Of a stretch of DNA of 64,000 nt, positions 1,568 to 48,862 are shown piece by piece (the stretch's first letter is position 1; each line of letters starts with the position of its first letter). The stretch is from Mesorhizobium sp. SARCC-RB16n (GTDB lineage Bacteria; Pseudomonadota; Alphaproteobacteria; Rhizobiales; Rhizobiaceae). Both the position numbers and the translations under genes were made by a program. The notes beneath the pieces are model-generated. The model did not search any database. It saw only the letters and a list, made by a program, of their open reading frames with translations, and had not been told where the DNA came from. The DNA is taken from positions 1 to 64,000 of the forward strand of contig NZ_ML703274.1 in NCBI RefSeq assembly GCF_008520305.1, given 5' to 3'.

Positions 1568-2740
1568 TCATCCTCCGCTTATGTCGCCTTCAGCCCGTAC
1601 TTGGTCACTGGCCCGTACTTGGTCACTAGAGTGACTCACCACAAGATCGTCGCGGTGGATCATCGCCGAACGCGCCTCATAGCCGAGCACGGTTTCGATC
1701 TCGGTCGTCTTCAGGCCTGCGATCCTTACGGCATCGGCGGCATCGTAGGCAACCAGCCCGCGCGCAATCTCGCGACCCTCGGGCGATAGGATCGCCACCG
1801 TGTCGCCGCGCGAGAAATTGCCGCTGACCAGCTTGACGCCGGCCGGCAGCAGCGACTTTCCCGAAATGAGCGCACCGATGGCGCCGGCATCGACCGTCAG
1901 CCGCCCGGCCGGTTCGAGCTGGCCGGCGATCCAGGTCTTGTAGCCCTTCACCGGATTGGCGCTGGGCTTGAAGAATGTCGCGCGCTCGCCGCGTTCGATC
2001 GCCATCAGTGGCGACAGCCTGGTGCCGGAGGTGATGATCATCGCCGTGCCGGCGGCGGTGGCGATCTTGCCGGCATCGAGCTTTGTGCGCATGCCGCCGC
2101 GCGACAGCTCGGAGGCTGCGGCTCCCGCCATCGCCTCGATGTCAGGCGTGATACGGTCGACCAACGGAATGAATTTGGCTTGCGGATCGCGTGCCGGCGG
2201 CGCGGTGTAGAGCCCATCGATGTCGGACAGCAGCACCAACAGGTCCGCGCCCATCATCGTCGCCACGCGCGCGGCCAGCCGGTCATTGTCGCCATAGCGG
2301 ATTTCGGAGGTCGCCACCGTGTCGTTCTCGTTGATGACCGGCACCGCCTTCATCTTGAGCAGCGTCGAGATCGTCGCGCGTGCATTGAGGTAGCGGCGAC
2401 GCTCCTCGGTGTCGCCGAGCGTCAAAAGAATCTGGCCCGATTTCAGAGCACCCTTGCCGAGCGCGTCCGACCAGGCGCCGGCGAGCGCGATCTGGCCGAC
2501 GGCGGCGGCGGCCTGGCTTTCCTCGAGCTTCAGCGCGCGCTTGCCAAGGCCAAGAATGGTACGGCCAAGCGCGATGGCGCCCGACGACACGACGAGGATC
2601 TCGGCGCCGCCATTGGCAAGCACGGCGATATCGTCGGCGAGCGAGGCCAGCCAATCGCGCTTCAGGCCGCTGGCGCGGTCGACGAGCAACGCCGAGCCGA
2701 TCTTGACTGTGATGCGCCGGTATTTCCTGAGCGACTGCAT
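1568..2740 (-). CDS. proB: Glutamate 5-kinase
   Basis: ProB phosphorylates glutamate at the start of proline synthesis and is normally the proline-inhibited step. The chosen start ([16 protein letters not shown]) gives 390 residues and lies four bases after the obgE stop; an upstream in-frame start would overlap obgE. The N-terminal amino-acid kinase domain shows [10 protein letters not shown] and INENDTVAT, followed by a C-terminal PUA domain from about residue 280. The C-terminus is slightly longer than usual and contains a direct repeat [12 protein letters not shown] that comes from an 18-base tandem duplication at 1593-1628. The duplication keeps the frame and falls in the tail, so activity is probably unaffected. 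Confidence 0.95.
1593..1628. repeat. 18-bp tandem duplication in the proB tail
   Basis: The unit gcccgtacttggtcactg occurs at 1593-1610 and again at 1611-1628 with only the last base changed. It adds six residues in frame to ProB. The second copy runs into the 14-base palindrome GTCACTAGAGTGAC at 1623-1636, which may have promoted slippage. Confidence 0.9.
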
Positions 2741-47230: not shown

Positions 47231-48499
47231 TTACCGGTACAAATCCGCCCGTGTCGGTGGCAAGCCGCTCGGGCCTCGCGCCCGTTTGGTGGCGACGGTC
47301 TGGAATATCTGCGCCGAGGCGCGTTCGAAGGTGATGGAGCAGCCGCTCAGGTAAAGCAGCCACAGCCGCGCCTTGGCTTCGCCGACCTCGGCGATCGCCT
47401 CGCCGAACCGCGCCTGCAGACGCTCGGCCCACAGCCTGCAGGTGCAGGCATAGTGCTCGCGCAAATTCTCGACATCGTAGACGAGGAAGCCGTGTGCTTC
47501 GAGATTGCCTACTGTCATGCCGATCGTGTCGAGTTCGCCACCCGGGAAGATGTATTTGATCAGCGCCTTGTATTCCGGCCCCTTGCGCAGCGTCTTCTTG
47601 ATGTCGCCCTTGCTGCGCCTTGTGATGGCGTGATGCAGATAGATGCCGCCTGGTTTCAGCAGCCGGTGGACAGCGGAGAAGTAGGCGGCATGGTTTGCCA
47701 GGCCTAGATGCTCGAACATACCGATGGACGATATCTTGTCGAAGGTGCCGGTGAGCTCCGCGTAGGACTTTATCTCGATGGTGATCTTGTCCTCCAGACC
47801 CTCGGCGCGAATGCGCTCGCGGGCAAGCGAGGTCTGGGCTTGCGACAGCGAGACGCCGTGCCCGACGACACCGTAGTTTTTCGCGGCATGGATCAGCATC
47901 GCGCCCCAGCCGCAGCCGATGTCGAGCAATCTTTCACCGGGTTTCAGCCGAAGCTTGCGGCAGATATGGTCGAGCTTGTCGACCTGCGCCTCGTCGATGC
48001 CGTTTGCGAAATCCTGGAAATACCCGCAGCTATAGACCATGCGCTGGTCTAGAAAGAGCCCGTAGAAGGCATTCGAGATATCATAGTGATGCTGGATCGC
48101 CTCCTTGCTGGAGCCGCTGACGAACGGGTTGCGACCGGCGAGATCAACCCGCGACGCCATCTGCTTTCTCGAAAACAGCACCGCCGGCAAGTCACGCAGA
48201 AGCGCCCGTTTCGGCAATGCCTTCAGCTTCGACCGCAGCTTGCCCGTCGAAGGCAGGGCATAGAAATCGAACAGCGATCCATCCTCGATGTCGACTGCCT
48301 TGGAAATCCACATCTCGATTAGGGTCGACAAGGACGGTCGGCGAACAATCCGCCAGACAATGTCGCGGTCGTTGATAACGAGCACGGGCCCCGTGGCGGG
48401 GCCGATCCGCTCGCCGGTCCACAGTCTGACCGCGAAGCCGGGCTTCACCGCCTCGACTACCGTTCGAACGATGCGCGCAGCTCTTTCGGTGGCGTCCAT
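47231..48499 (-). CDS. cfa: Cyclopropane-fatty-acyl-phospholipid synthase family methyltransferase
   Basis: Cfa adds a methylene from S-adenosylmethionine across double bonds of membrane lipid acyl chains, an adaptation to acid or stationary phase. The 422-residue protein has an N-terminal lipid-binding region and a SAM domain with LLDIGCGWGAMLIHAAKNYG near residue 196, SSIGMFEHLG and YLHHAI. The start at MDATERAARIVRTVV is chosen because GGGGAAGGGC precedes it. It is monocistronic and opposite the TIM-barrel gene. Confidence 0.9.
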   Translation of the reverse strand: MDATERAARIVRTVVEAVKPGFAVRLWTGERIGPATGPVLVINDRDIVWRIVRRPSLSTLIEMWISKAVDIEDGSLFDFYALPSTGKLRSKLKALPKRALLRDLPAVLFSRKQMASRVDLAGRNPFVSGSSKEAIQHHYDISNAFYGLFLDQRMVYSCGYFQDFANGIDEAQVDKLDHICRKLRLKPGERLLDIGCGWGAMLIHAAKNYGVVGHGVSLSQAQTSLARERIRAEGLEDKITIEIKSYAELTGTFDKISSIGMFEHLGLANHAAYFSAVHRLLKPGGIYLHHAITRRSKGDIKKTLRKGPEYKALIKYIFPGGELDTIGMTVGNLEAHGFLVYDVENLREHYACTCRLWAERLQARFGEAIAEVGEAKARLWLLYLSGCSITFERASAQIFQTVATKRARGPSGLPPTRADLYR

Positions 48500-48633
48500 G
48501 CCCTTCCCCGCGGTCGATGGCCAATCTTGTCCGTTTGAGACCTGGATCGCAAGCCAAAGCATGCGGCGCCATCTTCCGGCAAGGAATGCCTTTTTCAGCA
48601 TGGTACTTGTCATTTGCTGCAACGCACCCCATC

Positions 48634-48657
48634 ATGGGTGTGTGTTCAACGAACTGA
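48634..48657 (+). CDS. Seven-codon upstream ORF
   Basis: ATG at 48634 opens MGVCSTN and ends with TGA at 48655-48657, immediately before the perfect Shine-Dalgarno sequence of the next small ORF. It has no clear ribosome-binding site of its own. It may be a chance frame; listed because of its tight placement. Confidence 0.2.
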   Translation: MGVCSTN

Positions 48658-48671
48658 AAGGAGGTGATCCG

Positions 48672-48743
48672 ATGTCGAGTGATTTCGTTTTCCAGAACGT
48701 GGCCTCAGCGGATTGCACTTTCGGGAAGCAGTCTTCCCGTTAA
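48672..48743 (+). CDS. Candidate 23-residue small protein with perfect Shine-Dalgarno
   Basis: The frame encodes MSSDFVFQNVASADCTFGKQ and three more residues (SSR), then TAA. The 13 bases AAGGAGGTGATCC at 48658-48670 are the exact complement of the 16S rRNA 3' end, and GGAGG is seven bases from the ATG. A 7-bp hairpin (CGGGAAG/CTTCCCG) covers the last codons. No family is recognised. With the hairpins and terminator that follow, this looks like a short, strongly translated transcript or a ribosome-occupied regulatory RNA. Confidence 0.55.
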   Translation: MSSDFVFQNVASADCTFGKQSSR

Positions 48744-48779
48744 GGCGCGAGATGCGCGGCGGGTGACGTGAGCGTCACC
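48722..48779 (+). ncRNA. Two consecutive stem-loops after the small ORF
   Basis: CGGGAAG-CAGT-CTTCCCG at 48722-48739 and GGTGACG-TGAG-CGTCACC at 48762-48779 are perfect stems with four-base loops. The second can be extended by GGC/GCC with a bulge. With the terminator at 48812 they make a compact structured 3' region, suggesting an RNA function alone or with the small ORF. Confidence 0.5.
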
Positions 48780-48811
48780 GCCATTGAGCCGCGTCATGGA
48801 CGGAAACACGG

Positions 48812-48850
48812 AAGGCCGCCGGCTTCGAAAGAAGCGGCGGCCTTTTCCTT
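48812..48850 (+). terminator. Intrinsic terminator
   Basis: A stem of 14 pairs with one bulge and a GAAA tetraloop (AAGGCCGCC...GGCGGCCTT) is followed by ttttcctttt on the plus strand. It best serves the small plus-strand transcript, but it also lies 13 bases after the TadG-like stop on the minus strand. Confidence 0.85.
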
Positions 48851-48862
48851 TTGGGCCGGGTC

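Follow-up and report, generated by a model that had tools for sequence, protein, structure and literature searches.

A stand-alone small RNA gene of Mesorhizobium with an extended Shine-Dalgarno sequence before a tiny open reading frame

A small gene in the analysed Mesorhizobium DNA (a stretch of 64,000 nt, hereafter the window) joins a long complement of the 16S rRNA tail to a tiny open reading frame on a short, terminated RNA. Genes of this kind are already described, as small mRNAs with an extended Shine-Dalgarno sequence (SD) and as the Rfam family CC2171. We regard it as probable, at roughly 70%, that this gene is the Mesorhizobium member of a set of alphaproteobacterial stand-alone small RNAs with an extended SD, which are gated by the ribosome and in which translation is kept rather than the peptide.

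The gene lies on the plus strand between two genes of the minus strand, a CMAS-domain cyclopropane synthase-like gene (cfa) and a gene whose product has VWA and Tad domains (tadG-like). The product of the former (47231-48622) fell short of the cut-offs that NCBIfam sets for Cfa families, reaching at best 326.9 where 650 is required, and is probably a Cfa paralogue. All the parts that an earlier note on this DNA had described, namely reading frames, 16S complement, hairpins and a terminator, were located where it had placed them. A sigma70-like promoter (TTGTCA-17 nt-CATCAT, 48607-48635, plus strand) was predicted upstream by a scan that found one such site against 0.1 expected in shuffled sequences, and CCCCATCAT of this promoter-like site was retained in 29 of 35 relatives within the genus. 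A promoter logo anchored on AAC had 0 sequences anchored. Judged from the promoter-like site, transcription would be expected to start near 48642. The small RNA would then be about 205 nt long (48642-48846, plus strand), an extent that draws also on an alignment of 39 sequences and on the match to the CC2171 model at 48648-48843. The earlier note had proposed to look for a plus-strand transcript; in another species of the genus, Mesorhizobium huakuii 7653R, an RNA-seq report lists MH_s33, annotated as CC2171, as a 215-nt transcript (PMC5596092). MH_s33 is alike in genus and annotation, and its flanking genes are given in that report as (-)/(-), so its neighbourhood may differ.

The small open reading frame (sORF), MSSDFVFQNVASADCTFGKQSSR, has 23 codons on the plus strand (48672-48743) and runs from ATG at 48672 to TAA at 48741-48743. 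Its start lies 7 bases past the GGAGG core (48660-48664), as had been noted earlier, and its product had no match in Pfam or NCBIfam. A second, seven-codon frame immediately upstream (48634-48657, plus strand; ATG 48634, TGA 48657) had also been noted. It exists in the window, yet an ATG-to-TGA frame was kept in only 1 of 35 relatives within the genus. Moreover, it begins at 48634 inside the predicted -10 box and is therefore probably absent from the transcript. For these two reasons we rejected it and judged it to lie outside the gene.

Complementarity to the 16S tail is longest in GAAAGGAGGTGATCC (48656-48670, plus strand), 15 nt that end one base before the ATG. Thirteen of these bases, AAGGAGGTGATCC (48658-48670), had been recognized before; the match in fact extends to 15 contiguous nt and is broken at -1, where G stands in place of A. 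In relatives with A at this position, the complement can reach 16 nt. The tail used for comparison was read directly in a single genome of the order (L350, CTGGATCACCTCCTTTCT) and is assumed for the genus of the window, in whose searched genomes the tail pattern matched only the element or nothing. The exact 13-mer was found once, whereas an arithmetic estimate for the two strands of 64 kb gives about 0.002 occurrences. Allowing up to two mismatches brought the number to 5; shuffled sequences averaged 1.1, and 5 or more were reached in 1 of 100 shuffles. The complement to the tail is far from chance. A chance match, or a piece of a 16S gene in antisense, would be consistent with the identity of the 13-mer to the reverse-complemented 16S end, but identity ends after 15 nt, a limit on which we rejected the antisense fragment. 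This explanation is also contradicted by conservation throughout the genus together with the promoter-like site, the ORF, the hairpins and the terminator, and by occurrence in other families; we consider its probability close to negligible.

Both stem-loops and the plus-strand terminator of the earlier note were borne out by comparison of genus-type sequences. Hairpin 1 (48722-48728 with 48733-48739, plus strand; 7 bp) lies over the last codons, with 3 of 7 pairs changed on both sides and 99.6% of cells paired. It had been said to overlap the stop as well; it overlaps the last codons only, ending at 48739, before the stop at 48741-48743. Hairpin 2 (about 48758-48769 with 48772-48782, plus strand) is variable in sequence and retains its pairing, with 8 of 11 pairs changed on both sides and 95.9% of cells paired. 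The Rho-independent terminator (48812-48846, plus strand) has a stem of 48812-48821 with 48835-48844 followed by TTTT, and its 8 core pairs were 100% paired. It was called from an inverted repeat (I2) and its conservation. A simple terminator scan, which takes short simple stems with loops of 3-8 nt, found none and probably missed this one because its stem has a bulge.

The predicted fold of the RNA had a z-score of -5.8, and 0 of 200 shuffled sequences were equally stable. The alignment (A2) contained 39 of 46 genus-type sequences, after exclusion of L018, L022, L297, L319 and L325 (shorter list) and of L042 and L043 (insertion). Across these 39 sequences, 98.2% of the cells were paired and 13 of 30 pairs had changes on both sides. 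The observed pairing, double-sided changes and covariation score were reached in 0 of 500 shuffles, an excess that is partly due to the relatedness of the sequences; one of the five measures, the number of pair types, was weaker, being matched by 12 of 500. Sliding the hairpin partners abolished the pairing. The two sequences with the insertion share the ORF and carry about 50 additional bases in the region of hairpin 2, which lengthens the RNA from about 205 nt to 256 nt.

The DNA of 48610-48860 matched 36 of 37 Mesorhizobium genomes and 8 of 24 genomes of other families in the order. Thirty-five of the 36 genus matches were retrieved for comparison of the locus, and the 15-nt block was unchanged in 34 of them, the exception (L027) having one change. 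The same peptide was encoded in the Mesorhizobium loci L224 and L278. At the level of the order, the pattern GGAGGTGATCCRRTGTC (SD plus RTGTC) was present in 126 of 297 genomes and the reversed pattern in 0, with the qualification that two inspected matches (L055 and L078), one of them the sole match of its genome, were ordinary genes whose SD match was shorter. In the phylum, a model of the 48-nt core (R1) had matches at E ≤ 1e-4 in 58 of the 299 genomes searched, and all 58 belonged to the class of the window, Alphaproteobacteria. Model searches at a looser E ≤ 0.01 gave 181 of 297 and 109 of 289, tallies that overstate the family because many matches of about 18 bits (model positions 15-31, in the search with 109 of 289) resemble antisense 16S tails. 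A profile search of contigs, which serves for names and not for counts, matched at least 119 stretches.

In 68 divergent loci of the core model, the SD block matched GAAAGGAGGTGATCCA at 13 to 16 of its 16 positions. An ATG, GTG or TTG followed the 16-nt block at 0 nt in 64 of these loci and 1 nt nearer in the other 4, a position that is not independent evidence of a start because the model itself favours TG there. These loci bear on the possibility that the RNA is a non-coding regulator acting in trans, or a decoy for the 30S subunit, whose SD binds the 16S tail and whose translation is incidental. A tail complement kept nearly perfect across families and a structured 3′ half would suit such an RNA, and Rfam and the M. 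huakuii report file it as an sRNA. A pure decoy would nevertheless have no need of a stop-closed open frame of narrow length, and the start codons next to the SD block, with the reservation just given, also count against it. We regard this explanation as very unlikely.

The gene appears to stand alone, because among the 30 neighbour clusters listed the large ones (38 and 37 loci) showed genus loci and none outside the genus exceeded 6 loci; for the same reason, the neighbours were dismissed as a clue to function. Plasmid and phage collections (72,556 and 50,697 records, respectively) had no match to the element of the window at E 1e-5, and an origin from either was set aside. A Bradyrhizobium-type gene of 14 codons adjoins a tRNA gene in L127, L128, L129 and L258, and forms of it with 14 to 16 codons occur on the viral contigs L339, L340 and L342; together, these observations hint at an integration site. 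One genome (G341) had two strong matches to the core model, at C1:2922042 (7.5e-11) and C1:805100 (2.6e-10).

The length of the frame was narrowly confined. In 128 of 129 rows (after removal of L055 and of L068, a duplicate of L031), the first in-frame stop came at 14-31 codons, the exception being L078, whereas the other two frames were spread from 1 to more than 150. In shuffled sequence, a stop at 14-36 codons occurred in 37% of trials. In a separate listing of loci, three rows fell outside 14-36 codons: L288 (59), L343 (71) and L230 (6, probably because the locus comes to an end at that point). In a set of 277 members, the start codons ATG, GTG and TTG numbered 150, 123 and 4, counts that, like the range of lengths, are conditioned by the search, since its pattern fixed these three codons and ORFs outside 10-40 codons were removed.

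The peptide itself bore little mark of selection. For the 36 matched genus loci, pN/pS was 1.89 in the sORF (pS 0.046) as against 0.46 in the tadG-like gene (pS 0.59); for the 28 genus loci with cfa, it was 2.97 in the sORF (pS 0.014) as against 0.14 in cfa (pS 0.42). Windows of 22 codons in the neighbouring genes gave 0.02-0.65. The far lower synonymous divergence of the sORF (0.046 and 0.014, against 0.59 and 0.42 in its neighbours) implies that the RNA itself is constrained. For unique ORFs in nine groups, including the genus, pN/pS ranged over 0.83-1.81. The bootstrap intervals were wide for the genus (0.54-9.1) and for Bradyrhizobium (0.43-4.0), and were 0.86-1.95 for the Sphingomonad type, 0.52-1.42 for the Rhodobacterales type and 0.69-1.10 for the VSHC group of 25 codons. 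In the VSHC and MS..26 groups, compared without gaps, pN and pS were both about 0.4-0.56, and a ratio near 1 says little there because saturation alone gives such a ratio. A motif near the 3′ end of the ORF, GRGCARCCY, kept to the reading frame in 56 cases; in 12 others it did not, and 9 of these lay well inside a still-open ORF.

Could the 23-aa peptide nonetheless be the product, the long SD merely giving strong translation? The open frame of narrow length, a peptide almost constant within the genus, and peptide similarity within lineages (for example, VS[YF]xKRCHLAGIAR in Bradyrhizobium) would all fit a microprotein gene, and the near-constancy in the genus counts against retention of translation without the peptide. 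On the other side stand a pN/pS of about 1 or above with synonymous change suppressed, the retention of GRGCARCCY out of frame, and the finding that across families little of the peptide is common past its first residues and a partial EQP motif. We consider a microprotein gene unlikely. The patterns of substitution suggest that the translation of the sORF, rather than its peptide, is retained. The earlier note had taken the region for a self-contained small gene or a dual-function RNA (small protein plus regulatory RNA). The first proposal agrees with the gene having its own promoter-like site and terminator, with its conservation and with its covarying hairpins. A functional peptide, as a dual-function sRNA has, is argued against by pN/pS of about 1 or above, although the intervals are wide; because the peptide carries no sign of purifying selection, an RNA gated by translation is favoured over a small protein plus RNA.

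With respect to known families, the alignment of the window to Rfam RF01867 (CC2171, a Caulobacter sRNA) spanned model positions 1 to 159, and in it the two SD blocks coincided, as did the two terminators. The match rests mainly on these parts, the middle being poorly aligned, and at 35.4 bits (E 4e-6 for a search of 321 bases) it is below the gathering cut-off of 75, so the window is not a CC2171 member by the rule of Rfam. CC2171 also differs in being filed by Rfam as a non-coding sRNA and in its peptide. When 38 relatives were scanned, 37 matched CC2171 (L119 had no match) and 5 exceeded 75 bits, including Brevundimonas (86.1) and Methylobacterium (89.9). A match to ctRNA_p42d (24.2 bits, cut-off 50) lay on the terminator and was set aside. 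In L123, a match to the Brucella sRNA CI27 (2195-2351, minus strand; 44.6 bits, gathering 59.8) overlapped the end of its CC2171 match, the two being on opposite strands.

Small mRNAs with an extended SD were reportedly described by Hahn et al. in 2017 (RNA Biol 14:1353): rreB, of 14 aa, in Bradyrhizobiaceae and rreR, of 18 aa, in the Rhodobacter/Roseobacter lineage. They are said to associate with the 30S subunit, to be weakly translated and to be stabilised when the start codon is removed. The gene of the window resembles them in their reported build, a short RNA with a terminator on which a very long complement of the 16S tail immediately precedes a tiny ORF, and with its promoter-like site, ORF and terminator it has the form of a stand-alone short mRNA. 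It differs in its 23 codons, its peptide and its 15 contiguous nt; the search of Hahn et al. reportedly required at least 16 nt, so the Mesorhizobium form may have escaped it. The loci of Bradyrhizobium have 14 codons and those of the Rhodobacterales type 18, which we take to be the lengths of rreB and rreR. In a structural survey that cites Hahn (PMC7217052, Table 1), small proteins of 14 aa from B. japonicum and 18 aa from D. shibae are reported as unstructured, a further point against a microprotein gene; we infer that they are rreB and rreR. Together with the CC2171 alignment and MH_s33, the agreement in length and the proteins of the survey led us to assign the gene of the window to this described kind. 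A stretching of SD pairing toward the start codon, which helps to place the start, is likewise reported for Staphylococcus aureus (PMC13009471), where, unlike here, it concerns many mRNAs rather than a dedicated small RNA, in another phylum. By ribosome profiling in Caulobacter, as reported by Schrader et al. 2014, ncRNA regions were mostly untranslated and two earlier ncRNAs were translated. This result counts against gating by the ribosome, with the proviso that CC2171 may or may not be one of the two.

Some lineages carry a sequence downstream that is complementary to their own SD. An internal anti-SD throughout the class was not supported, with mean z values of -0.14 (VSHC), +0.74 (Bradyrhizobium) and +0.41 (MS[SN]E) and, for the Mesorhizobium set, a median of -0.53; mean dG was left out for MSSG and Bradyrhizobium, where its values were artefacts. 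A test of run length gave 0.05 or less for 6 of 28 Mesorhizobium members, 3 of 72 of VSHC, 2 of 34 of the Sphingomonad type and 0 of 12 of Bradyrhizobium. In all 17 members of the Rhodobacterales type, GGAGG took part in the longest run of complementarity between the SD and the sequence past the stop; 8 of the 17 were at or below 0.05 against shuffles, and the stretch past the stop was of the kind CACCTCC, CATCTCC or CGCCTCC (for example, L227, L239 and L276). Four loci that we label Rhizobium-like (L174-L177), of the same family as the window, have an SD with one extra A, AAAGGAAGGTGATCC, and their complements after the stop (CGCCTTCCT, CACCTTCCT, CGCCTTCCT and TCATCTTCCTT, respectively; 9-11 bp) fit the SD with the extra base, with 3 of 4 at or below 0.05. 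An internal anti-SD is thus favoured in these two lineages, although their members are related and the counts are not independent. In the Rhodobacterales and Rhizobium-like lineages, the downstream complement could hide the RNA's own SD until a ribosome takes it. Such pairing does not explain the window, because it was unsupported in the Mesorhizobium set (6 of 28).

For a ribosome-gated RNA, we propose the following course. A 30S subunit would zip onto the whole SD along the 16S tail and initiate, and the ribosome would translate the 23 codons, hairpin 1 included, as far as the stop. This passage across the hairpin would tie termination to RNA folding, as had been guessed in the earlier note. 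The long SD would hold the ribosome and make its escape slow, and the fate of the RNA, that is, its stability and the exposure of its 3′ half, would follow the supply of ribosomes; the slow escape and the effect on stability lean on what Hahn et al. reportedly found. The peptide would be mostly a by-product. A wider proposal, which we hold tentatively and at somewhat less than even odds, is that CC2171, rreB, rreR and many unannotated loci belong to a single RNA family spread over the class, whose selected features are the RNA sequence and the act of being translated (start, frame length and stop) and not the peptide, and which senses the supply of ribosomes by competing for the 16S tail.

Among the papers listed by our literature searches, which for Hahn et al. 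covered the citation, none brought CC2171 and the extended-SD small mRNAs together; this bridge, and the sign that translation is retained without its peptide, are new here. The results suggest the merger of an Rfam sRNA family with a described family of small mRNAs. If translation is selected without the peptide, such genes would be misplaced in catalogues of sRNAs and of microproteins alike, and any hunt for what the peptide does would be misdirected. A class-wide RNA that complements the whole 16S tail would be a natural probe of how the length of the SD controls initiation and RNA decay.
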